A DNA stretch of 20,072 nt from a virus. Each line of letters opens with the position of its first letter. Position 1 is the first letter of the stretch. Under the pieces are notes generated by a model, which did no database searches, was not told where the DNA came from, and was given only the letters and a program-made list of their open reading frames with translations. The stretch is taken from positions 1 through 20,072 of the IMG/VR virus record IMGVR_UViG_3300036766_000031; one strand, 5' to 3'. The position numbers and the translations under genes are program-made. Below are positions 2,347-16,843 of the stretch, piece after piece.

Positions 2347-2720
2347 AATGGCATCTCCACCTTCTCGAACCCAACATACTGGGCGACCTTTGCGGTCGCC
2401 TCATCCGTACCCCAGAACACCAGTTCCCGCGCCCCATTCGCTGCCGCCAGCATGGCAGTCGCAGCTACCATGGCTTTCAGCGCGTGCGTCATCTCGAATG
2501 GCGTCGCGCCCGGCTTCAGGGCCAGCGCCCCCAGCATGATAACTGGAATCACCGGCATATAGCATATTGTATCATCCCTGCCACTTACCGCTTCCATCAC
2601 CGTGGCGGCGTTCCTGTCGTTGTCGTCGGCGTGGTTGCGCTCTTCGTTGGCCTCCAGCCACTCCAGGAACCGGGCATGGTCACGGCAGGGGATGGCAACA
2701 TACATGGTATGCAGGCTCAT
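2325..2720 (-). CDS. GNAT-like acetyltransferase family protein
   Basis: Read as 131 residues from ATG at 2720. This ATG overlaps the TGA of the upstream gene in an ATGA junction, which argues for this start over the 18-residue upstream extension, although no clear ribosome site is seen. The second half has the shape of a GNAT fold: a hydrophobic strand (PVIPVIMLGALALKP), a long helix (THALKAMVAATAMLAAANGA), a strand (ELVFWGTD), a helix (EATAKVAQYVGFEKV) and a final strand (PLWRLRL). The G-F-E-K-V piece before the last strand is typical of GNAT C-termini. A clear Q/R-x-x-G-x-A acetyl-CoA loop is not visible, so activity is uncertain. It sits between two virion genes, like other small GNAT-like genes in phage structural modules, and its substrate is unknown. 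Confidence 0.72.
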   Translation of the reverse strand: MSLHTMYVAIPCRDHARFLEWLEANEERNHADDNDRNAATVMEAVSGRDDTICYMPVIPVIMLGALALKPGATPFEMTHALKAMVAATAMLAAANGARELVFWGTDEATAKVAQYVGFEKVEMPLWRLRLP

Positions 2721-3712
2721 AGCAGATTCTTGAAGATGTTGTGAGCGGCAATCATGGGACTGTGCCTGCCACACCAGAAGCGATGCTCAGGCTCGCAGGA
2801 TATCACTACCCGCAGCCCGTCAGGCGCATCCACCCATTCCAGCCCCCCGACATACCCGCTACCGCCACCCGGCTGTCGCACCATTATGCGATTACTGAGT
2901 GTCAGCAATGATGCTGGCTCATCGGAGCCATCGAACAATGGTTGCGGTGTCTCCGGGCTAATCTCTATCTCATCCCCGGCATCCGTGCGTATCAGTACAA
3001 ATGTATCGCAAGGCGTCAACTTGATGCTCACTATCTCCGTCCAGCCATCGCCATCAGGTGAGGCGATGCGCTCTCCCGGTTCCAGCGAGGCGCATTTTAC
3101 AATGCCACGGGACAGTGACTCTACCACCATGTAATCGCGCGGGCAGCCTCCGGGGACGGTGCCGCCCACCACATCGCCACGAGAGCCGCCGCCAGTCACG
3201 GCAGTAGAGCCGGGAGTGGCGCGAGTGGTGAAGTATATGGCCCCAAATGACAGTGCCTCGCGGTCTTGTGTGGATTGCTGCGCCGCAGCAGCATCCGTGG
3301 GCGCGGTGTGAGCAAAGGACGGGCTACCAGTATTCCCAGCCACAAAGCCCACGCCACATCCCAGAGTAGCGAAGAATGGGTAAAAGTAGTAGATGGTAGA
3401 TGGTACAAGTCCATTCACGGTCATGGATGCGGCCACCACCGCCTGTTTGGTGCCATCTCCACGTTGTAGCAGCCCACTCCAGTTCAATGTGATGCTGATA
3501 TCCGTAACCGCCCCAGTAAAGCTGGGAAACGTAACTCCGGGAGGGCTGCCCTTGGCCACTATCTTCCGGCCATCCACCCGCCCCCCGGCGGTGAACCCGC
3601 CCATGTCTATAGGGCCAAATCTCATTCCCTCCGCCCTGGAGATACCGCTTTTCGCGTTGCGCTCCAGGCGGCGCAACCGCGTGACTATCTGGCCGATATC
3701 GAAGTCATCCAT
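2717..3712 (-). CDS. Virion-associated protein with C-terminal Hint (intein-like) domain
   Basis: A 331-residue protein starting one base after the stop of the beta-propeller gene. Residues 1-30 are charged and probably helical (IVTRLRRLERNAKSG), a possible trimer or anchor segment. Residues 60-165 are beta-rich, resembling a fibronectin-III-like module (DISITLNWSG, NGLVPSTIYYFYPFF). Then comes a Gly-rich linker (GGGSRGDVVGG). From Cys190 to Asn325 the sequence follows the Hint/intein layout: Cys190, LEPGERIASPDG, DEIEISPETPQPLFDG, a block-F-like SCEPEHRFWCG, and the closing MIAAHN. After HN comes Ile, not the Cys, Ser or Thr needed for splicing, so cleavage without splicing would be expected if the domain is active. 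The usual block-B His is replaced by Gln in TPQP. The Hint call is recognition by eye. Confidence 0.75.
   Translation of the reverse strand: MDDFDIGQIVTRLRRLERNAKSGISRAEGMRFGPIDMGGFTAGGRVDGRKIVAKGSPPGVTFPSFTGAVTDISITLNWSGLLQRGDGTKQAVVAASMTVNGLVPSTIYYFYPFFATLGCGVGFVAGNTGSPSFAHTAPTDAAAAQQSTQDREALSFGAIYFTTRATPGSTAVTGGGSRGDVVGGTVPGGCPRDYMVVESLSRGIVKCASLEPGERIASPDGDGWTEIVSIKLTPCDTFVLIRTDAGDEIEISPETPQPLFDGSDEPASLLTLSNRIMVRQPGGGSGYVGGLEWVDAPDGLRVVISCEPEHRFWCGRHSPMIAAHNIFKNLL
2738..3145 (-). other. Hint/intein-like domain (within the gene at 2717-3712)
   Basis: Residues 190-325 of the host protein, about 136 residues, the size of a mini-intein without an endonuclease. Candidate elements are the first nucleophile Cys190 (GGC-PRD), a G-E-R-I strand followed by SPDG, the S-PETPQPLFDG segment where block B would be, PEHRFWCG as block F, and the terminal AHN with His324 and Asn325. 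Only six residues (IFKNLL) follow it. Confidence 0.55.
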
Positions 3713-5585: not shown

Positions 5586-6821
5586 CTAAGTGATGAGTTC
5601 TACCAGCCAGCCCTGTGGGGTCACCTGGTCGGTATTGGCTACGTTGAAGGTAGCCTTGACTACAATTGGCGAGCCACTGTTGGTATTCTCCGCCGGAGCA
5701 CCAATGCGAGCATCCCCGGTGGCTCCAACCCCCACAACGGAGGTTGCCATCCATTGCGCCGTGGTCGAGGCAGTATTGTTGAATACCATGGAATGTATCT
5801 CCATGGAGTTGGTGTTAGCCGTTACCGCCGCAACGGTCACTGCGGTCGCGCCGAAAGATACCTTGTACGTGACCGAATTGGCCCCGGTACTGTGCCGTAG
5901 ATACATGGTTACGCGTATGCCCTTGCTGGCCGCCAATGTCCCCGACGGCATGGAGTAGGTGTACATCGTCTTGTCGGTAGAGTCCCCGGTCAGCGCCCCC
6001 AATACATCCTGCTTATCCAGTATCACCGCCGAGGTGGGGGCTGCCTGGGCTGCCCATGATGCTGCCGTGGCACTGGTAGCCGTCAGTACATCCAGGGCCG
6101 CCGGAACTCCCGTAACCGCCACGCCATTCAGCATAGCCACATTCAGGTTGGGAACAACCGTGGTAGAAGTGATAGAGAGTGGCGCAGTCCCAATAGCCAG
6201 CGTGGAGGTAATCACTCCACTGGCGGAGATGGATGTCACCCCAGACAGCGCCCCGGCGATAGCCAGCGCCCCCGACATGGAGCAACCGGCAGCCCCGCCC
6301 AGCGCCAAGATGTTCCCACTCATGGATGCCAGATTCAGGTCTGTGGTGTTGCCGCTATTTCGTATCTTGATAGCATCCACATTCGCCAGCCGCACCTGTC
6401 CGGTGGTAGCTATGCCAGCAGTCAATGAGCCGAGCGCCTGCCCCAATATCTCGTCACCCACCAATTGCAACACTGTCCCGGTGAAGTTGCGTATTGCCAG
6501 CGCCCCCGGAGTCCTCAAATCCAGCACGGCGCTGTTGGCGGGGATGGATGACTCATTTCCTGCGCCCATCGAGGTCGGCACCACCACCAGACATGCGGCC
6601 ACATCTGCCAGGGCCGCGTCAATCTTGTTGGTCACGGTAAGCCCGGGGAACTGGTCGGCAAACCGTACGTCTTCCAGCTTCACGATGGACAATGTGCCGG
6701 TGAATGATCCCGTGCCGCTGCAAATGATGTTCTGGGAATATACATCCCACTGCTGGGACGCGCTGCCCAAGTCATATCCGGTAGCAGAGGGCAACAGATT
6801 GTCGGCGTATACCAGACTCAT
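5586..6821 (-). CDS. Tail fibre protein with shared N-terminal anchor module (third paralogue)
   Basis: A 411-residue protein starting at ATG 6821 with GTGGAG eight bases upstream, in an ATGA overlap with the beta-helix spike gene. Residues 1-37 (MSLVYADNLLPSATGYDLGS, then SQQWDVYSQN) match the N-termini of the two preceding genes and probably attach the fibre to the tail. A segment near residue 190 (SGVITSTLAIGTAPLSI... followed by LNVAMLNG) is a diverged copy of the LNADLLDG repeat seen in the 8875-9558 protein. The C-terminal 150 residues are beta-rich (TMYTYSMPSGTLAASKGIRV; YKVSFGATAVTVAAV; GWLVELIT), resembling receptor-binding or shaft domains of phage fibres. No enzyme motif is seen. 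Confidence 0.82.
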   Translation of the reverse strand: MSLVYADNLLPSATGYDLGSASQQWDVYSQNIICSGTGSFTGTLSIVKLEDVRFADQFPGLTVTNKIDAALADVAACLVVVPTSMGAGNESSIPANSAVLDLRTPGALAIRNFTGTVLQLVGDEILGQALGSLTAGIATTGQVRLANVDAIKIRNSGNTTDLNLASMSGNILALGGAAGCSMSGALAIAGALSGVTSISASGVITSTLAIGTAPLSITSTTVVPNLNVAMLNGVAVTGVPAALDVLTATSATAASWAAQAAPTSAVILDKQDVLGALTGDSTDKTMYTYSMPSGTLAASKGIRVTMYLRHSTGANSVTYKVSFGATAVTVAAVTANTNSMEIHSMVFNNTASTTAQWMATSVVGVGATGDARIGAPAENTNSGSPIVVKATFNVANTDQVTPQGWLVELIT

Positions 6822-8866
6822 CCCAGCGACTCCACGATAAGATTCAAGTCATACTGCATGGTCGTACCGCCGCCATCGGTATATCCGAAAGCATACTGGA
6901 GGTTTGTCCCGGTCTTGGCATAAGCATGGACCGCTCCACTCACCGTAGTAGCCGTGGTGTTGGTGGTAGAAGTCATGCCCGTAACACTGGCGGGCGTGGA
7001 TGTCTTTACCACCGAATCGTTGATGTCGGTATAGACGACCTGGAATCCCGTCGCGCCGCCCAGTGTCGAGGAGACGCTTCCCGCCCGCGTGATGGATGCT
7101 ACCCACCGTATGGCATAGAAGCCGGAAGTCGGTACGGCATATATGGTGGTAGTGGATATGGCCGCCCCCTGCGCCGTCAGGTTGGCCTTGGCTACGATAG
7201 AGGGAATGCCATTCCCCGTCAGTGCCACGCCATTGTAGGTAGTAATCAACCCTCCCAACGTCATGCCCGCAGTGAAGGCAGGATTTCCGCCCGCCAGTAC
7301 CACCGCTCCTGTCCCGGTCACGCCATTCGACAAGTCCGCTGCCGCCAGCGATGCTGACACGAAGTTGGTTCCATCGCCGCGCAATACCTTGCCGGATGCG
7401 GCTGCTCCGGCTACCCGGAAGCCCGTAGTGGCGTTGAACACCGTGGCGTTGTAGCTCGGCCCGTAGATACCGTAAATCAGCCAGTTGGCCGCCTTGGTGC
7501 TGGCGAACACGGCGTTGAAGGTGGTGGCTCCGATGGCCGTCACCGTCACGTCTTCGGAGTTGGTGCCGTCTGCGTTCATCACGAACAGCTTCTGCCCGAC
7601 GGAGATGGCGTCGGTGTATCCGGGTGCGCCCATAAACGCCGGGGTGACGGTCTGCGCGCCTCCGGCGTGACCTGACGCTGCATAGGTTTGCGTCTCTTGC
7701 CAGATATTGTTGCGGAGCAGGGCTACGCCGAACCCGTCCACAAAGCCACCGGAAGTCTTGGACGTTCCAATGATTAGCTTCGAGTTTCCAACGATGGTCA
7801 GTCCGGTCGCCTGGTTTGACGCGCCATTCTTGAAGGTGAACAATCCAGTACCAGCCGTGGCGGAACCCCAGTTACCGGAGATCACACCTCCAGTGATGAA
7901 GTCCAACCTGAAATCGCTATTCCCGCTGCTGGCGTTGGTCACGTTCCCGTGGGCCACCAGCCCGGATGAGAGTCCTACATAATTCCCGGACAGGGTAGTG
8001 GCAAACCACTGGTACGGCGCTTCTGTATGGCTCTCGGCCTCGTTGCCGCTCAACACCAAGCCGGTCACGTTGGCGGCCCGCACCGCCATCACGCCAGCAT
8101 TGAAGTTGTTCCCGCTGATGGTGTGACTGCCGCCGCCATCGTCAATGACCTGAATGCCCACGCCAGCCGTGTTGTTGAACTGGTTGCGGAGGATGCTGAT
8201 GCGATTGGTGAAGCCGGGGAGTGCGCCCGCCGTCCAGTCAGCCCCGTTGGTCAGCCAGATGTTCCCGCTGTTTGCCCCTACCGGAGCCCAGAAGTAGTTG
8301 TCGTAGACGCTGACAATCTCGGCCTGGTCGAGAATCAGGCTGTACTTGCAGCCCGTGAGCCAGACGTTGTGAACGTAGAACCCGGTGCCGCCGACGTTCT
8401 CGATGCAGGCTCCGGTCGGCGTTGCGTTGGTATTGGTGATGCCGATGCCGGAGATGTCAATGTTGATGTTGGTCGAACTGTTGATGGCAGAGATTGTCTT
8501 AAATGCACTTCCAGCAAAACTAGACGTGATGGTGACATTTGCTGGCCCATCCCCGGTGATCGTCCACCCGGTCTTCATGTCAATGCGGACGGCTTGGGCA
8601 TAGTGACCAGCCGGGAAGTGGATATGGGAGTTGACTGGCAGCAGATTGATGGCCGCCTCCCAGCCCGTCCATGGGCTGGCCAATGTACCTGCGCCGCCCG
8701 TGGAGGCCAGTGACGCTATGGTGGCGTTGGGTGACAGCAGGTTATGGAATATCACCGTGCCGGATACATCCAGGTTCTGGGCGTAAACATCCCACCGCTG
8801 GGTGGGACTTCCAGCGTCATACCCGGTCACGCTCGGCAGGATATTGTCGGCAAATACTGTGCTCAT
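6818..8866 (-). CDS. Tail spike with parallel beta-helix domain, possible depolymerase
   Basis: A 682-residue protein. Residues 1-36 are the anchor module shared with two neighbours (ADNILPSVTGYDAGSPTQRW). Residues of about 48-120 look like the entry to a right-handed parallel beta-helix (WTGWEAAINLLPVNSHIHFP, AGHYAQAVRIDMKTGWTITGDG). To about 390 there are successive short turns with N-rich ladders (ISILRNQFNN, HTISGNNFN, GLVLSGNEAES, GVISGNWG, GLTIVGNS), typical of pectate-lyase-like spikes that bind or cut capsule or O-antigen. The last 126 residues (from IVAKANLTAQ to LIVESLG) are a separate beta-rich domain of the kind that ends many phage tail proteins. Catalytic residues cannot be assigned, so it may bind rather than cleave. 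The start has AGGGGA four bases upstream. Confidence 0.82.
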   Translation of the reverse strand: MSTVFADNILPSVTGYDAGSPTQRWDVYAQNLDVSGTVIFHNLLSPNATIASLASTGGAGTLASPWTGWEAAINLLPVNSHIHFPAGHYAQAVRIDMKTGWTITGDGPANVTITSSFAGSAFKTISAINSSTNINIDISGIGITNTNATPTGACIENVGGTGFYVHNVWLTGCKYSLILDQAEIVSVYDNYFWAPVGANSGNIWLTNGADWTAGALPGFTNRISILRNQFNNTAGVGIQVIDDGGGSHTISGNNFNAGVMAVRAANVTGLVLSGNEAESHTEAPYQWFATTLSGNYVGLSSGLVAHGNVTNASSGNSDFRLDFITGGVISGNWGSATAGTGLFTFKNGASNQATGLTIVGNSKLIIGTSKTSGGFVDGFGVALLRNNIWQETQTYAASGHAGGAQTVTPAFMGAPGYTDAISVGQKLFVMNADGTNSEDVTVTAIGATTFNAVFASTKAANWLIYGIYGPSYNATVFNATTGFRVAGAAASGKVLRGDGTNFVSASLAAADLSNGVTGTGAVVLAGGNPAFTAGMTLGGLITTYNGVALTGNGIPSIVAKANLTAQGAAISTTTIYAVPTSGFYAIRWVASITRAGSVSSTLGGATGFQVVYTDINDSVVKTSTPASVTGMTSTTNTTATTVSGAVHAYAKTGTNLQYAFGYTDGGGTTMQYDLNLIVESLG

Positions 8867-8874
8867 GGGTTCCC

Positions 8875-9558
8875 CTAGGGTTTGTAATAGGCTACCTTAC
8901 CAGTAGCCCCAGCCACGTTGATTACTATGTAGCCCTCTACGTTGGCCTTCACTGCCTCCCCAGTCCCATTGCTGGCCGTGGCCGCCACGGTCGAGCCGAA
9001 GCCCACTTGCGATGCTGCTACGGTGGGAGCAGCGGCGGTCAAGGTCAGGGTTGTCAAGGCCGCCGCCGCCGGAGTAGTGGAACCCAGCGCCCCCGGAGCC
9101 GCCCAATCTCCCCCGTCCAGTAAATCAGCATTCAGGTTGGTACACTTGGTGACAGAGGCGATAATCAGCGGGGCCGTTCCAGTGCTGACGGTGGATGTGA
9201 TAACACCACTGGCGGATATAGTAGTAAAGCTGGCCGCGCCCGGAGTCACACCCCCGATAGTTCCCGGAGCCGTCCAGTCCAGTCCATCCAACAAGTCCGC
9301 ATTCAGACTGGCTACCTTGGTGGTGGAAGCAACCACGAAGGGGGCAGTCCCGGTAGCTACCGTAGATGTCAACTGGCCGCTCAATGTCAGCGAAGTGATG
9401 CCGCTGACTGCCGCCCCAAAGGTCACGGCTCCACTCAGTGTGGTAGCGCCGGATACCGCCAAGGTCTGCGCGAACACGTCCCACTCCTGGGACGGAGAAG
9501 CCCCCAGGTCATATCCGCTGGCCGAGGGAATGAGATTGTCTGCTATCACCTGGCTCAT
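8875..9558 (-). CDS. Short tail fibre protein with LNADLLDG repeats (first paralogue)
   Basis: A 227-residue protein with ATG at 9558 and GGGGG seven bases upstream. Residues 1-35 (MSQVIADNLIPSASGYDLGA, SQEWDVFAQT) are the shared anchor module. Residues 54-113 and 114-170 are two copies of a unit of about 57-60 residues: SG-x-(I/L)-TSTV, GTAP, LNADLLDG, DW-x-APG, then TPGAA or TPAAA. The last 50 residues end in GYIVINVAGATGKVAYYKP, a small beta domain common at the ends of phage tail fibre proteins. It is short for a full fibre, so it may be a trunk, adaptor or side fibre. It lies directly after the connector-like gene, one base away. Confidence 0.8.
   Translation of the reverse strand: MSQVIADNLIPSASGYDLGASPSQEWDVFAQTLAVSGATTLSGAVTFGAAVSGITSLTLSGQLTSTVATGTAPFVVASTTKVASLNADLLDGLDWTAPGTIGGVTPGAASFTTISASGVITSTVSTGTAPLIIASVTKCTNLNADLLDGGDWAAPGALGSTTPAAAALTTLTLTAAAPTVAASQVGFGSTVAATASNGTGEAVKANVEGYIVINVAGATGKVAYYKP
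9049..9399 (-). repeat. Two tandem LNADLLDG units coding for a fibre shaft
   Basis: Copy 1 spans about 9220-9399 and copy 2 about 9049-9219. Both encode GTAP-(F/L)-(V/I)-(V/I)-AS, then LNADLLDG and an APG turn. A third, diverged copy lies in the fibre gene 5586-6821, near 6240-6110. Confidence 0.8.
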
Positions 9559-11611: not shown

Positions 11612-12058
11612 TTACCCCCGCTGGGAAGCAGCCAGGGTGGTCAACAGCCAGATGGTCGAGGTGATGACCGGCGTGCTGCCCCCGATGACATATCCGATTT
11701 TCATAAAGGCGGGGTCGAACACGCAGTTCTTCGCCAAGGTTCCACCCGTGGTAGCAGATGGGCTTTCCAGGGCCGCATCGCTCTCTCCCAGGCCAAGCCG
11801 GAACACGAAGTGGATGTTCCCGGCAGCAGTGACCTGAGTAGAGCGAATCGGCAACCCGACATAGGTTGTTCCCCGATCCGGCGAGGTTTGCAACTGGAAA
11901 TCCGCCGTGGGGGAAGTTCCGCTGACCGATGCAGTGACGATGACGATGTGATAGCTGTCACAAATCCCCATGTCGAATGCAGCAGTTGCGCCAGTGGATG
12001 AGTATGCAGTGGAGGCAAAGAGTTTCTTGCCCTGTACCTGATTCAGTCCCTTTGCCAT
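11612..12058 (-). CDS. Small beta-rich probable virion protein
   Basis: A 148-residue protein. Strand-like segments alternate with Thr/Ser-rich loops (SYHIVIVTASVSGTSPTADF; NIHFVFRLGLGES; MKIGYVIGGSTPVITSTIWLL), a composition seen in phage head decoration and neck proteins. The ATG shares one base with the TAA of the upstream gene (TAATG), and GGAGGT lies six bases before it, giving efficient coupled translation. It follows the capsid gene by one gene. Decoration or head-completion function is inferred from position and beta content. A 60-base gap containing a hairpin follows. Confidence 0.72.
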   Translation of the reverse strand: MAKGLNQVQGKKLFASTAYSSTGATAAFDMGICDSYHIVIVTASVSGTSPTADFQLQTSPDRGTTYVGLPIRSTQVTAAGNIHFVFRLGLGESDAALESPSATTGGTLAKNCVFDPAFMKIGYVIGGSTPVITSTIWLLTTLAASQRG

Positions 12059-12591
12059 TACAGCACCTCCAGTGCGAGTTCGTCGAGGTAGCCAGTATCG
12101 CCGCCACCCGTGGCGATGGTGATTTCAACCGATAGTCCCAACCCGGACTGGCTGAAGTCCACCGCAGTCGGGGCTGCGGTCAGAATGGCAATCGCGGTAA
12201 AGACCGGAGACACACCATTGAGTCCCCAGAAATGACCCGTGAGTACCTGTGAAACGCTGCTCCAGTACAGATTACCACCAATGGCCCATGACGCCTCGGC
12301 AGTGGAGATGGCCGCTGCGACACCAGCCGCGATGATGGTATTCGAGCCAGCCGTGGTGGATACACCGTAGCTGACCTTGGGAGTGACGTTGTGGGAGCCG
12401 CTATTCAATGCCCGGCCAATAGCGTGGAACCTGAATGCCATGGTCTTGGGCGCGGAGGATTGCGCCAGTACCGGGAAGAAAACGGCGGCAGCCTTGGTGC
12501 TGTCGTCGGCTTGAAGAAAGGTGGTGGCCGAAGTCGGGTTAACGAGATTGGCCGCCCTCTTTGCCTTGTAGCATACATTTGCATTAGCCAT
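12058..12591 (-). CDS. Small beta-rich probable virion protein (possible capsid decoration protein)
   Basis: A 177-residue Ala/Ser/Thr-rich protein directly after the major capsid gene. Strand-like segments include KTMAFRFHAIGRAL, NVTPKVSYGVSTT, and the closing LGLSVEITIATGGGDTGYLDEL followed by LEVL, compatible with a beta-sandwich. The start at 12591 has AAGGAG seven bases upstream. Genes in this place often encode capsid decoration or stabilising proteins made in large amounts, and the good ribosome site fits that. No family is recognised, so the role is inferred. It is coupled to the next gene through TAATG. Confidence 0.72.
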   Translation of the reverse strand: MANANVCYKAKRAANLVNPTSATTFLQADDSTKAAAVFFPVLAQSSAPKTMAFRFHAIGRALNSGSHNVTPKVSYGVSTTAGSNTIIAAGVAAAISTAEASWAIGGNLYWSSVSQVLTGHFWGLNGVSPVFTAIAILTAAPTAVDFSQSGLGLSVEITIATGGGDTGYLDELALEVL

Positions 12592-12636: not shown

Positions 12637-13593
12637 TTAGATTACCGAGGCGTCGGCCTTGATAATCTTGAAACGTAGGTTGACAGTATCCAGCGTCTTG
12701 GCTGCGAATGCGAACCAGTAAGAGGCGAAGGTAGAAATCTCGCCTACCGGGTCAGCCGTAGACAGACCGGGGTTGACGACGTTGATGCGGAACTTCTGGT
12801 TGCGTGGGTCTTCCACCCGGTCAGGCCCGCGCCCGCTCAGGTCCACGATGCCTACCCCGTTCTCGCCGAAGATGTAGGTGTAGTAGAGCACATTGGGAAC
12901 AGAGCCGGAGGAGCCGACATTGGTGGATTCCAACAGCCTGCATCCGCCCACCATGCCAACCTCGCCCTGCAATACCTGGTTGCCGCCGGAATACTTGAGA
13001 GCATCAATGAATCCGCCAGCGGTATTGTCGGAGATAAGGTCATAGTGCACATAGGGATGGATGACACTAAGAAACTCGTTGCCTGTCTGGGGGCGCACGT
13101 TGATGCCCTTCAGTAAGGCCACGTTCTTCTTGAAATCAGAAGCCGTTAGGGTAGCTCCGATGGTTGACACCAGGGCTGACGTATTCGAGTCAATCTCGGT
13201 GCGGATGATGGTGTCCACCGAGCCAGCGGCGCGGTATGACAGATCATCCACCATGCGGGTGAGGGGTTTGTTGATGTCGGTCAAATCAAGCAGTTGTGAA
13301 CTGGACTCGAAGTCCGAATACTGCTCGACAGTGGCCGATATGGGTGTGGTGGTCATGGATGTCGGCGTTCCGATGGCACCTTCCGCCGATGGATTCGTGT
13401 TGAATCCGGGCAGCGTGGTGCGGAACATCTGGATGGTCTTGCCGGAACCCTGGGGAAGCGGGTGCGGGTCGCATACTTGTGCGAAACGAAACATCGCTTC
13501 CAGCCTGTCTAGTGGCCGCTTGTCATAGTAGACGGTTGCCAAGTGTGCCAGGGTTGCAGTTTGAGTTGTCAACCCGGCGGGTGCATATGCCAT
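12637..13593 (-). CDS. Major capsid protein, N4-gp56-like family
   Basis: A 318-residue protein with a strong ribosome site (AAAGGAG, eight bases before ATG). The layout matches the N4-gp56 family: a short N-terminal arm with TVYYDKRPLDRLEAMFRFAQ, then PLPQGSGKTIQMFR, an acidic/Pro/Thr stretch (EGAIGTPTSMTTT), QYSDFESSSQLLDLTDIN, and a helical DDLSYRAAGSVDTIIRTEI. A central domain (FLSVIHPYVHYDL) and a C-terminal strand region (STFASYWFAFAAKTLDTVN) follow. Copies would form the HK97-fold shell. Its own promoter lies upstream, fitting high production. The scaffold gene is not adjacent: five other genes separate them, which is unusual. Confidence 0.88.
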   Translation of the reverse strand: MAYAPAGLTTQTATLAHLATVYYDKRPLDRLEAMFRFAQVCDPHPLPQGSGKTIQMFRTTLPGFNTNPSAEGAIGTPTSMTTTPISATVEQYSDFESSSQLLDLTDINKPLTRMVDDLSYRAAGSVDTIIRTEIDSNTSALVSTIGATLTASDFKKNVALLKGINVRPQTGNEFLSVIHPYVHYDLISDNTAGGFIDALKYSGGNQVLQGEVGMVGGCRLLESTNVGSSGSVPNVLYYTYIFGENGVGIVDLSGRGPDRVEDPRNQKFRINVVNPGLSTADPVGEISTFASYWFAFAAKTLDTVNLRFKIIKADASVI

Positions 13594-13728: not shown

Positions 13729-13757
13729 TGTATAGCAAATAGCTAGGGGGTTGTCAA
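13729..13757 (-). promoter_or_regulatory. Sigma70-type promoter for the major capsid gene
   Basis: On the minus strand, TTGACA (13752-13757) is followed after exactly 17 bases by TATACA (13729-13734), with TG one base before the -10 box (extended -10). The start of transcription would be near 13722, giving a leader of about 128 bases before the capsid ATG. The promoter overlaps the last codons of the glycosyltransferase gene. Confidence 0.75.
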
Positions 13758-14342
13758 GCGAGGGGCGATATATCCTGTGACCGGTTGCCATGTCTCCGAC
13801 TTCTTGCCGGGATGATTGGCCCACAGTTGCTTCATGTAGCCGACCTTGAGGCCCCGCCGCTGGTATGCCGCACAGTGTTCCTGGTCATAGCCACGGCGGG
13901 TCTGTTCCGGCCACTCGGTGATGATACCCTTGCGGCAGAAGCGGATGCCGCCGACATTGTGTTCCTCTTGTACGGCCTCGTCTATATAGGGCGGGGAGCC
14001 ATCCACGGTTGCGGGCATCAGGGTGGTGTTCTCCAGCAGGGGAGACAGTATCCCGAACTGGGGATAGTTTTCCATGTACCTGCGCCCATATAGTATCCAT
14101 GCCAGCCAGTTGTCCATGCGGGATGGTTCCATGTCGTCATCCGCCACTATGTAGATGGGGGTAGTGGATTCATGCTCGGCCACCCTGCGGCGCTCCGACT
14201 GGAACTGGTAGGACTCTCCCGGCTCGGCCTGTAATACGGTGATGGCCAGATGGAACTCGCGCCACTTGGCCAATACCTCGCGGGCGCGCCTGTGCCGCTC
14301 CGGGGACTGTGGGGCAGAACAGAAGAAGATGTCAGGTATCAC
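13743..14342 (-). CDS. Glycosyltransferase-like protein (GT-A fold, DXD)
   Basis: A 199-residue protein starting at GTG 14342, which overlaps the stop of the deacetylase gene (GTGA). The N-terminus MIPDIFFCSAPQSPERH and helix resemble the start of small GT-A enzymes. YIVADDDMEP (residues 64-72) is the Asp-rich nucleotide-sugar/metal motif after a strand. GILSPLLENTTLMP and GGIRFCRKGIITEWP fit the middle of GT2-like enzymes. GYDQEHC with a later WANHPGKKSETW fits the acceptor/metal His region. It is shorter than typical GT2 enzymes (about 250 or more). The sugar and acceptor are unknown; virion proteins, phage DNA or host glycans are possible. It ends inside the capsid promoter. Confidence 0.75.
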   Translation of the reverse strand: MIPDIFFCSAPQSPERHRRAREVLAKWREFHLAITVLQAEPGESYQFQSERRRVAEHESTTPIYIVADDDMEPSRMDNWLAWILYGRRYMENYPQFGILSPLLENTTLMPATVDGSPPYIDEAVQEEHNVGGIRFCRKGIITEWPEQTRRGYDQEHCAAYQRRGLKVGYMKQLWANHPGKKSETWQPVTGYIAPRLTTP

Positions 14343-14929
14343 TGTAGTCCATCTAGCTGACTGACCGTTACAAACTCCCTGTCCGGGAACATCCGCAATA
14401 TGATGTCTACAGCCTCTACGGTATAGCGCCGGTCGCCCAGACCATCCGGGGAACCATCGTGCAGCAACACTATTTCACCACGGGTAGCAGCATTCAACTG
14501 CTCCGCAACGTGCATCACGGTGTCGCGGGTGTTCTTGGCCGCCCAGTCGCCGGGGCAACATGACCACATCACTACTTTGTAGCCCATGGATTCGGCAATG
14601 GCATCTACCGGGGTGGGGGCGACGCGGCCATAGGGCGGACGGAACAGGCAGGGCGGCGCGCCGATGGCTTCCTGGCACTTGGTAATCTGCTCCCGTATCA
14701 CATCTTCCGAGTGGTCGCCCAGGTACAGGTGGTCGAACGAGTGATTGCCAATCTCGTTCCGTGACCCCGACATCAACTGCCCCATGGCCCGCAACTTTCT
14801 TCCGAGTTGAAAGAACGTAGCGCGGGCGGAATGTTGGTGCAGCAACTTGACTATTGGCAAAGTCCATTCACCCGGCCCATCATCGAACGTCAGTGCCACC
14901 TGCTGCGGGTTGGTTCCATGGGTCAACAT
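14339..14929 (-). CDS. NodB-type polysaccharide deacetylase (carbohydrate esterase 4)
   Basis: Read as 196 residues from ATG 14929. A GTG at 14983 gives 18 more residues but overlaps the previous gene by 61 bases. All CE4 motifs are visible: LTFDDGP (residues 13-19, metal and base Asp), NHSFDH (62-67, the two metal His), RPPYG (97-101), DW at 128-129 in PGDWAAKN, and LLHDG (155-159, catalytic His). The family removes N-acetyl groups from sugars such as GlcNAc in peptidoglycan, chitin or capsule. There is no signal peptide or membrane segment, so it acts in the cytoplasm or as part of the particle. It overlaps both neighbours by a few bases and is surely co-translated with them. The substrate is unknown. 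Confidence 0.88.
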   Translation of the reverse strand: MLTHGTNPQQVALTFDDGPGEWTLPIVKLLHQHSARATFFQLGRKLRAMGQLMSGSRNEIGNHSFDHLYLGDHSEDVIREQITKCQEAIGAPPCLFRPPYGRVAPTPVDAIAESMGYKVVMWSCCPGDWAAKNTRDTVMHVAEQLNAATRGEIVLLHDGSPDGLGDRRYTVEAVDIILRMFPDREFVTVSQLDGLQ

Positions 14930-15579
14930 TGTATGAGACTTAACCCCCTCCAGGAGTCCAGGTGCACTACCTCCTTGCCGCACTCCAAAATACCCCGTCG
15001 CAGCCGTGGCTCATTCCGGGTATCGTGCATGGCGGCGATGCTGCCCGGCTTCATGCGAAGCAGTGCTCCGATTCGGGTATTGTAGCTGTCCTCTTCGGAT
15101 TCCCCGCTATCCAGCCACGCAAAGTCGCAAATCTCCACTTCGGCCAAGTCATCCGCATTGCACCACCTGACCTCCACGGGCAATGATACCGTTTTGCCAT
15201 CCGGCCTGCCGCCGCAACGGGTGCGCGTTACCCCGCACAATGTATCCATGGTGTCACAAGTGACCACCCTGCCATGCCCATTATCCAGCGCCGCCCGCCC
15301 CAGCGCGTATGTGCCGAATCCCAGGCTGCACCCCACTTCCACTATCAACTCCGGCTTCAGCAGCCGCACCAGGGCATACAGCATATCCAGCGCCTCTAGC
15401 TCCGTGGACGTACCATAAACCGGCAGTATCCACTCGCGCCGGTATTCATTGCCGCCGTGGGAATATGCCGGGGCAACATCGGGGAACACTGACAGTTCAT
15501 GGATGAGCGATACCCAGCCAGTACCAATCTCCGGGCGGGCATCCAGGGGAATGTTGCGAAACTCAGCGTCCCTTTTCAT
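14923..15579 (-). CDS. Class I SAM-dependent methyltransferase (Methyltransf_24 / CmcI-like)
   Basis: A 218-residue protein. LIVEVGCSLGFGTYALGRA (residues 78-96) is the SAM-binding motif I with the preceding strand. VVTCDTMD (105-112) gives the acidic residue that holds the ribose. DFAWLDSGESEEDSYNTRIG (152-171) fits the post-motif region, and PGSIAAMHDTR (178-188) is the typical late strand and loop. The family methylates sugars or small molecules, or hydroxylates in CmcI. The N-terminal 60 residues may hold the acceptor site. The start at 15579 overlaps the previous gene by 17 bases and the stop overlaps the deacetylase start by 7. A methyl-sugar or protein target is possible but not shown. 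Confidence 0.85.
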   Translation of the reverse strand: MKRDAEFRNIPLDARPEIGTGWVSLIHELSVFPDVAPAYSHGGNEYRREWILPVYGTSTELEALDMLYALVRLLKPELIVEVGCSLGFGTYALGRAALDNGHGRVVTCDTMDTLCGVTRTRCGGRPDGKTVSLPVEVRWCNADDLAEVEICDFAWLDSGESEEDSYNTRIGALLRMKPGSIAAMHDTRNEPRLRRGILECGKEVVHLDSWRGLSLIQC

Positions 15580-15742
15580 TGCTGACCAGCCTCTTTACCA
15601 CGCGCCGCAGCCGTAATACCTCCTGGGCAAATGCTGCCTCGCGGGTATTTTCTTTCACCGATGCTGCCATACGCGCTACCTCGTCGTCGTCGTAGCGGCG
15701 CAGGTCCTTGGGTGCATCACTCTTGTCATACGAGATAGACAT
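15563..15742 (-). CDS. Small charged helical protein, unassigned
   Basis: Read as 59 residues from ATG 15742 (weak GGATGG site). An upstream ATG at 15793 would add 17 residues but overlaps the Cys-pair gene. The sequence is highly charged and probably one helix: LRRYDDDEVARMAASVKENT, then EVLRLRRVVKRLVSNEKG. It sits ten bases after the preceding stop and overlaps the methyltransferase start by 17 bases. No family is recognised. A small assembly partner or regulator is possible. Confidence 0.6.
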   Translation of the reverse strand: MSISYDKSDAPKDLRRYDDDEVARMAASVKENTREAAFAQEVLRLRRVVKRLVSNEKGR

Positions 15743-15752
15743 ATTCCATCCA

Positions 15753-15908
15753 CTATGGCTGCACGGCAGGCTGCTTCCAGAATGCGGTGTCATGGTAATT
15801 GCAATATGTACAGTGACTGTACACTATGTCCTTCTTTTCCGTTCCGACCGCATGATATAGCACTAGGACGATGCAGCCGCACTTTGCCGCCAAGACTGCT
15901 GATTTCAT
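15753..15908 (-). CDS. Small Cys-pair (zinc-ribbon-like) protein, 51 residues
   Basis: This frame runs from ATG 15908 to TAG 15753 and fills the apparent gap after the scaffold gene, five bases from its stop and ten before the next ATG, which supports reality. The sequence has KCGCIVLVLYHAVGTE near the start and SHCTYCNYHD near residue 31-40. CGC and CTYC pairs are spaced like a small zinc ribbon. No clear ribosome site precedes the ATG. A 17-base palindrome lies inside it (15807-15823). The function is unknown; DNA, RNA or protein binding would fit such a mini-protein. Confidence 0.6.
   Translation of the reverse strand: MKSAVLAAKCGCIVLVLYHAVGTEKKDIVYSHCTYCNYHDTAFWKQPAVQP
15807..15823. repeat. 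Perfect 7-base-arm palindrome with 3-base spacer
   Basis: TGTACAG, TGA, CTGTACA, within the 51-residue gene. It may be a repressor site or chance; no promoter boxes align with it on either strand. Confidence 0.4.
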
Positions 15909-15913
15909 GGTGA

Positions 15914-16843
15914 CTATTGGGTACTGTATTTCAGCTTCTTGTACTCAGCCTCAATCTGGTCACTGGTCATGTTGGCGAAGTTGGTGTTGACCGGCACGGT
16001 GTTCTGCGGGGCCAGCATCGGGGGCGGGACGGGCGCAGCAACCACTTGCGGCTTGGCCCCACCACGCGACACCGCAATCTGCTCGGCAGAACGCGGCGCG
16101 TACAGCTTGTTCTGGATACAGTAAGCATGGGCCAGTTTCAGGTTGCCCAGCGTCTCCGGGAGCTTGTTGTCCTGCATGGTGGTATATAGGGTATCCAGTG
16201 ACTCCTTGGTGAAGGGGAACTCCGGGCACTCGCGCTCGAATGCGCCAGCGATGTTCTGCGCCCGCTGTATCTCCGTGGCAGACTTCATGTCAATGAAGTC
16301 CTGCTTCATCTCATCTGTATTGTCATAGCCCAGGGAACGGGCCATGGCCATGGCGGTGGCTTCCGCCGGGTCAGGAAGGTTCTGGTAATACAGTTCGGCA
16401 AACTGGTCGGGTGGCAAGCTGGACAGGGTGGCAGCTACTTGTTCGCGCTGCTCTACTACTGTGGCGTCGGCGGCGGGAGTGGGCGCGGGAATGGCATCTA
16501 GCCGCTGCTTGGCTTCCAGGTAGCTCCTGTTGGTGGCAACCTTGGACGCTGCCAGCTTCTGTGCCACGTCCAGCGGTTGCCCATCGAATACCTCACCGGT
16601 GACCAGTTTGGTATGGAGCGTCCCATCTGTCCGCAATTCATATTCGGAGAATCCCTCGGGCAGCAATGGCTCGGGCGCAGACACCCCCGCCGGAAGGCCC
16701 GCCACATCATCTGCCGCCGGAACGGGCGCGGGCGCGGCGGCTACTTGGGCGCGCAGCACATTGGATGCTTGTACCAATTCCCCCGGAGACATCTGCTCCG
16801 GCGACTTCTCGGTAAGATTGGGCGTGACGATTGGTGCACTCAT
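15914..16843 (-). CDS. Scaffold / capsid assembly protein
   Basis: Read as 309 residues from ATG 16843, which overlaps the previous stop (ATGA) and has GAGGAAG seven bases upstream. A longer in-frame extension to 16999 is out of place with this site. The protein is acidic and Ala/Pro-rich (APAPVPAADDVAGLP), with long helical stretches (AQKLAASKVATNRSYLEAKQ; TEIQRAQNIAGAFE). It has Pro-rich linkers (PQVVAAPVPPPMLAPQ) and a C-terminal helical, basic end (SDQIEAEYKKLKYSTQ). This shape and its position after the portal and before the capsid are typical of scaffold proteins, whose C-terminal basic helix binds the capsid protein. A protease function is not seen. Confidence 0.82.
   Translation of the reverse strand: MSAPIVTPNLTEKSPEQMSPGELVQASNVLRAQVAAAPAPVPAADDVAGLPAGVSAPEPLLPEGFSEYELRTDGTLHTKLVTGEVFDGQPLDVAQKLAASKVATNRSYLEAKQRLDAIPAPTPAADATVVEQREQVAATLSSLPPDQFAELYYQNLPDPAEATAMAMARSLGYDNTDEMKQDFIDMKSATEIQRAQNIAGAFERECPEFPFTKESLDTLYTTMQDNKLPETLGNLKLAHAYCIQNKLYAPRSAEQIAVSRGGAKPQVVAAPVPPPMLAPQNTVPVNTNFANMTSDQIEAEYKKLKYSTQ

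Follow-up and report, generated by a model that had tools for sequence, protein, structure and literature searches.

A variable slot for glycan enzymes between the scaffold-position and major capsid genes in a clade of uncultured podoviruses

Gene content of the locus

The stretch of DNA analyzed here (the window) is an entire IMG/VR record of 20,072 bases in which every clear gene lies on the minus strand. The genes follow one another in the order partial TerL, SU10-type portal (PF23899, E 1.2e-31), g3, scaffold-position gene, g5, methyltransferase (MT), CE4 deacetylase, glycosyltransferase (GT), major capsid protein (MCP), g10 to g15, fibre-like genes and others (Table 1), the name "scaffold" being given on gene position alone. 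A preliminary description of this DNA had placed three enzymes, overlapping each other by 4 to 7 bases, between the scaffold and capsid genes, and both the coordinates and the overlaps are reproduced here: MT and CE4 share 7 nt (ATGTTGA), and CE4 and GT share 4 nt (GTGA). The short gene that opens the cassette, g5, was absent from that description, and overlaps the MT start by 17 nt. The G+C content of the cassette is the same as that of neighboring genes, and a scan for promoters and terminators around it yielded no matches above chance. The lack of a signal peptide, noted earlier for the deacetylase, extends to all three enzymes, none of which carries a transmembrane segment either (maximum 19-residue hydropathy of 0.71, 0.72, and 1.24 in the three). 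No family match was found for g10, nor, in a Pfam search, for the scaffold-position protein.

Two further genes of the window were examined by eye, neither having a Pfam or NCBIfam match: the C-terminal half of g20 (2717-3712), which ends in AHNIF..., looks Hint/intein-like, and g21 (2325-2720) has the look of a GNAT-type acetyltransferase.

Table 1. Genes in and around the slot, in their order along the minus strand.
Feature	Position	Strand	Description	Basis
Scaffold-position gene	15914-16843	-	Upstream border of the slot	Homologues directly precede MCP in 22/42 groups
g5	15563-15793 (gene caller prefers 15563-15742)	-	Short conserved ORF, first in the cassette	68% identical homologue inside the L003/L004 cassette
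MT	14923-15579	-	Class I SAM-dependent methyltransferase (Methyltransf_24), 218 aa	PF13578, AlphaFold2, fold comparison
CE4	14339-14929 (ATG start; ORF list also has a longer GTG form, 14339-14983)	-	NodB-type polysaccharide deacetylase without signal peptide, 196 aa	PF01522, PDB matches
GT	13743-14342	-	Small GT-A glycosyltransferase (predicted), 199 aa, GTG start	22-member alignment, AlphaFold2, fold comparison
MCP	12637-13593	-	Major capsid protein, downstream border of the slot	PF25209 E 3.2e-9, phrog_1357 E 4.5e-28
g10	12058-12591	-	Small conserved head-module protein	Homologues after MCP in most loci
g11	11612-12058	-	Small conserved head-module protein	Homologues after g10 in most loci; 46% identity to L003

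The three enzymes

The earlier assignment of MT to the class I methyltransferases is borne out both by a match to PF13578 (Methyltransf_24; E 1.6e-7, 32.6 bits against a curated cut-off of 26.3) and by its predicted fold. The AlphaFold2 model (pLDDT 82, with low confidence in the first 55 residues) resembles O-methyltransferases of the COMT/SafC type (Z 19.4 to 8c9v and 19.0 to 3tr6), and thus has the predicted fold of a COMT-type, cation-dependent O-methyltransferase. Residues D157 and D186, invariant in 18 homologues, match by eye two of the metal ligands of COMT (an Asp, Asp, Asn set), the third position not being Asn.

CE4 is clearly a NodB-domain protein with putative deacetylase activity, matching PF01522 (Polysacc_deac_1; E 6.9e-24, 84.6 bits against a cut-off of 23.1) and PDB deacetylases with E values down to 3e-23. 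As had been claimed, all CE4 motifs are present, and they align to those of the PDB enzymes: DD (D16, D17), HxxxH (H63, H67), RPPYG, DW, and LLHD, which provide the Asp-His-His metal triad and the five catalytic motifs. Its score against the NodB equivalog model of NCBIfam (TIGR04243) is 89.8 bits, under the cut-off of 240. A role as a secreted peptidoglycan deacetylase or lysis aid was considered and set aside because of the missing signal peptide, although lysis could in principle give access to the wall.

For the GT, there is no match among Pfam, PHROG, or NCBIfam models, nor any meaningful sequence match in the PDB. Twenty-two homologues were aligned, three of which match PF00535 (Glycos_transf_2) weakly (best E 0.0048; the window GT has no match to it), while the 22 family members gave no match among PHROGs. 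The AlphaFold2 model obtained with this alignment (pLDDT 91, pTM 0.90) has GT-A enzymes as its nearest structures, namely B4GALNT1 (Z 14.1, rmsd 3.0 over 169 residues), LH3, GalNAc-T2, and TarP, and the top structural matches listed are overwhelmingly GT-A enzymes; Foldseek matches include structures of domain 1 of A064R from PBCV-1 (E 7e-5 to 1.3e-4). Within the family D69, D70, G131, D153, H177, and G179 are invariant, and G132 is nearly so; a DXD metal motif at D68-D70 and a C-terminal His at H177 make up the residue pattern expected of a metal-dependent GT-A enzyme. We are confident in this protein as a predicted GT-A fold enzyme of an undescribed family that has no library model; its earlier designation as GT-A was right, but no sequence model matches and the relationship is visible only by structure prediction.

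The scaffold-capsid slot in related phages

Since single-sequence scans of IMG/VR with the window GT and portal found nothing, profile queries built from the window and L003 were employed (L-numbers being the labels of related loci or records compared with the window). The MCP profile recovered 77 related loci from IMG/VR, forming 46 groups at 95% MCP identity, in 42 of which both the scaffold and the MCP gene can be seen. Searches of 84,980 bacterial and archaeal genomes with the GT and MCP profiles recovered no relative, and tblastn queries taken from the GT and MT families had no match among 50,697 phage records.

The preliminary description had taken scaffold and capsid genes to be normally adjacent, and a gap of only 82-300 nt in 22 of these 42 groups agrees with this; the gap exceeds 1 kb in 18, and is intermediate in two (496 and 614 nt). 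Of the 18 long slots, 14, that of the window included, hold a homologue of the GT family. In nine of the 13 GT-bearing slots other than that of the window, a GT start codon shares exactly 4 nt with the scaffold stop; unlike these scaffold-coupled GTs, the window GT is the last gene of its cassette. MT lies beside GT in the long slots of the window, L004, L013, L018, L030, L042, L054, and L090, and a second GT is present in those of L034, L069, and L070, as well as L004 and L054. Of the four remaining long slots, those of L008, L020, and L023 contain ferritin-like and Fn3-like ORFs, and that of L079 contains other ORFs. GT is also encountered outside the slot, in some cases together with MT, before TerL (L015, L026, L027, L061) or after g11/g12 (L014, L032). 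In this podovirus clade, the region between scaffold and MCP is a repeatedly refilled and exchanged site for glycan-enzyme cassettes.

Individual slots show further variety. A ferritin-domain gene followed by an Fn3-like ORF occupies L020 7704-9204 (PF00210, E 1.2e-16), L008 11670-12447, and L023 8775-9853; an NAD-dependent epimerase (PF01370) follows two GTs in L070 (8904-9842), and a histidine phosphatase (PF00300) lies beside a degenerate GT in L057 (8529-9176). Tunturi_3 (L114, PP885686.1), a distant phage of an acidobacterium, has an annotated acetyltransferase (5821-6246) in the equivalent slot, with the scaffold-position ORF4 on one side and the major head protein on the other. The MCP genes themselves are interrupted in some records by insertions with LAGLIDADG-type ORFs (L004 15100-16120, L080 9230-10150, L086 9200-10190, L090 9200-10060, L064 9300-10190), the insertion points in this set lying near residues 21, 56, 56, and 6-7. 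The presence of stop codons after the first exon makes these look like introns and not inteins; an Rfam search of the interrupted genes found no group I intron.

Co-occurrence of the three enzymes

CE4, GT, and MT were searched for over whole records in 34 members of the clade plus the window. CE4 is present in five of these 35 (the window, L018, L030, L032, and L090), all of which also carry GT and MT. The GT and MT pair is found in 11 records, and CE4 thus occurs in 5 of 11 with the pair versus 0 of 24 without it (one-sided Fisher p 0.0014, or 0.0045 without the window, values uncorrected for relatedness that are indicative only, since the records are partly interrelated and partly incomplete). 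L075, where GT is matched but MT only below threshold, was placed among the records that lack the pair. L101, retrieved via its MT, was left out of the count; CE4, MT, and a GT2-like gene are present in this record, but no member of the GT family. Over the MCP tree, CE4 undergoes four state changes, the filled slot nine, and GT in the slot eleven; an independent-pairs test of CE4 against the GT and MT pair on this tree has too few pairs and is underpowered.

Two other clusters bring the three activities together. The slot of L090, a second in-slot trio, holds GT, another GT-like ORF (GT2), a CE4 of divergent sequence, and an MT that overlaps CE4 by 4 nt. In MW202801.1 (L115, Podoviridae sp. 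ctQWt234), MT, NodB-like, and GT genes with 4-nt overlaps are located in the head module just after MCP, and this trio is a second, independent assembly of the same reaction types from other MT and GT families. Six genes follow MCP in that phage (9641-14304), namely radical SAM/SPASM, GT2, PhyH dioxygenase, DREV methyltransferase, NodB-like, and GT-B genes, with several 4-nt overlaps.

The coordinated three-enzyme pathway put forward in the preliminary description thus holds in part: CE4 accompanies GT and MT in all five clade members that have it, and trios recur in L090 and MW202801.1, but the association is not obligate, for six records (L004, L013, L026, L027, L042, L054) have GT and MT without a detected CE4, and in L018, L030, and L032 CE4 lies upstream of TerL, kilobases away from GT and MT. 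Scattered sites among relatives had been named as evidence that would speak against such a pathway, and these three remote CE4 genes are, in part, an instance of them. GT and MT are the common core and CE4 is a rarer add-on, while a strict three-gene unit is supported only in part. The CE4 of L032 (2322-2904) is itself split into two frames by a frameshift, which could stem from a sequencing error or from decay.

The same observations bear on the possibility that the three enzymes are independent cargo in a tolerant insertion slot, with no common product, a reading that we regard as quite unlikely. The presence of ferritin-like and Fn3-like ORFs in some slots, the variable order and content of the cassettes, the pairs without CE4, and the CE4 genes at other sites all fit it, whereas the occupation of most long slots by one GT family, the restriction of CE4 in the clade to records with GT and MT, and the reassembly of an MT-NodB-GT set from other families in MW202801.1 argue against it.

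Exchange of the cassette

Comparison of the window with its nearest relative, L003/L004, reveals 46-81% identity for TerL, portal, scaffold, g5, MCP, and the following head genes, g11 (46%) being less conserved than most of its neighbors. MCP is 81% identical to that of L003, but GT and MT are only 31% and 32% identical, CE4 is missing in L003/L004, and the gene order is rearranged. The window GT groups instead with those of L032, L097, L012, and L013 (SH-aLRT 93), and L032 also has the MT closest to that of the window, despite capsids that are not nearest neighbors. These sequence comparisons show that the cassette is exchanged between phages relative to the capsid. The fibre-like genes g16 and g17 (6818-9558) share only ends of approximately 40 residues with L003, a pattern that suggests modular exchange of putative receptor-binding parts. 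Exchange of both the glycan cassette and the fibres would fit a surface-exposed trait.

Proposed function

We give even chances to a head-coupled pathway that would add, de-acetylate, and methylate a sugar on virion proteins, with the acceptor, the sugar, and the order of steps as we infer them. The three genes would represent one version of the contents of a variable slot for glycan enzymes, located in the head operon of an uncultured podovirus clade, and would probably be translated together with scaffold and capsid; the 4-nt overlap of GT with the scaffold gene in most GT-bearing groups suggests that GT translation is tied to head assembly. In the cytoplasm, the soluble GT would move a sugar from a nucleotide sugar onto a protein made by the phage; the capsid, or the small head proteins encoded after MCP, would be the most likely acceptors, with g10 and g11 as speculative candidates. 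CE4 would then strip an acetyl group, most likely N-acetyl, from the transferred sugar, and MT would cap it, most likely by O-methylation, the outcome being particles with a modified, variable glycan. Since GT and MT form the core and CE4 an add-on, MT probably acts independently of the amino group exposed by CE4, and O-methylation would fit its predicted fold. The chemistry proposed is modeled on Nod factor synthesis, and the virion target on A064R of PBCV-1 and on the glycosylated mycobacteriophages (see below).

The main rival, which we consider unlikely, is that the cassette alters host surface glycans or their cytoplasmic precursors (LPS, capsule, or wall polymer), for example against superinfection or re-adsorption of progeny. 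Relatives of CE4 act mostly on chitin-like or peptidoglycan polymers, wall teichoic acid GTs, TarP among them, are found among the structural neighbors of the GT, and temperate-phage GTs that modify the host serotype are known (PMC12619734). Against this stand the absence of signal peptides and membrane segments from the three enzymes, which is shared by the CE4s of L018 and L030 in that they likewise start without a signal peptide, and the location in the head operon with a GT mostly coupled to scaffold. In addition, no integrase was found in most of the GT-bearing records examined, some of which may be incomplete, and this makes a lysogenic serotype role less likely. The position of the slot in the head operon, the coupling of GT to scaffold in most relatives, and the exchange of the cassette favor the virion as acceptor over the host surface, and decoration of the particle is the most likely use of the cassette, with the virion as its presumed target.

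A further alternative, modification of phage DNA or nucleotides by GT and its partners as protection against host nucleases, appears very improbable. Virus-encoded GTs that glycosylate DNA have been described (Pyle 2024, as cited in PMC12619734), but a search of 22 clade records, for the most part 42-50 kb long and in many cases GT-bearing, detected no gene of the thymidylate synthase/hydroxymethylase type (PF00303), and the cassette is placed among head genes and not replication genes.

Decoration of the virion by a joint pathway also has to be weighed against two counterpoints: the pairs without CE4 and the remote CE4 genes imply that the three enzymes need not share one product, and the cassette of some relatives lies outside the slot, preceding TerL or following g12. 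A more specific form of this proposal, possible though doubtful, is that of a capsid-glycan pathway outside the actinobacteriophages, in which an undescribed small GT-A family, scaffold-coupled in most relatives, would place a sugar on head proteins, de-N-acetylation would then yield a free amino sugar, methylation would modify it further, and phages would swap cassettes in the manner of serotype genes.

Comparison with known systems

The GtrA/GtrB/Gtr serotype-conversion clusters of temperate phages also have swapped, variable GTs, and need a membrane flippase and a lipid-carrier GT. The cassette resembles them as a phage-encoded means of sugar transfer with exchanged GTs, and differs in that its three enzymes have no membrane segment; in this record, which covers part of the genome, no Gtr-type flippase or lipid-carrier GT lies beside the window GT, the other genes of its slot being g5, MT, and CE4, and the borders of the slot scaffold and MCP.

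In the synthesis of the Nod factor core, the rhizobial enzymes NodC, NodB, and NodS bring to one sugar the three reaction types predicted for the window enzymes, those of a GT, a cytoplasmic CE4 de-N-acetylase, and a SAM-dependent methyltransferase (PMC5080398). The window enzymes differ from these individually: CE4 falls below the cut-off of the NodB model, MT belongs to Methyltransf_24 and not to NodS, and GT is not NodC-like in size or family.

A064R of the chlorovirus PBCV-1 has a GT-A domain joined to a sugar O-methyltransferase that finishes the capsid glycan (PMC9614988). Together with A061L, it acts on the N-glycan of the MCP, and shares with the window a small cytoplasmic GT-A domain of approximately 200 aa and a SAM-dependent methyltransferase that caps the sugar, but the domains are fused, the host virus is a giant algal virus, and no deacetylase is involved (PMC9614988). 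The likeness is structural, from Foldseek, and A064R is not the closest structural match of the window GT.

MW202801.1, whose capsid is distantly related (MCP 27.6% identical), has the same order of MT, NodB-like, and GT genes in its head module, although its cluster comes after MCP and not before, employs a DREV-type MT and a GT-B-type GT, and includes additional radical-SAM, GT2, and PhyH genes.

Virion glycosylation by phage-encoded GTs is known in the mycobacteriophages Che8, Corndog, and Myrna (Freeman et al. 2023, as cited in PMC12363180 and PMC12619734), and in Che8 and Corndog the capsid and tail tube are the proteins glycosylated (PMC12363180 and PMC12619734). Such glycosylation was reported only in 2023, in mycobacteriophages. 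As in the window, the agent proposed is a soluble GT encoded by the phage, which would modify virion proteins with no membrane pathway dedicated to the task; in contrast, the window GT is of an undescribed family and lies between scaffold and MCP, with MT and sometimes CE4.

Should the cassette indeed decorate capsids, variable glycans on the virion would be a widespread trait of soil podoviruses, encoded at a defined locus that is open to exchange and has a fixed position within the head operon, and the benefit of a variable sugar coat to a lytic soil phage could then be tested; the GT family would be a new enzyme family to characterize. To the phage-encoded glycan modification already known, the cassette adds a GT family that no library model covers and a well-defined site of exchange.
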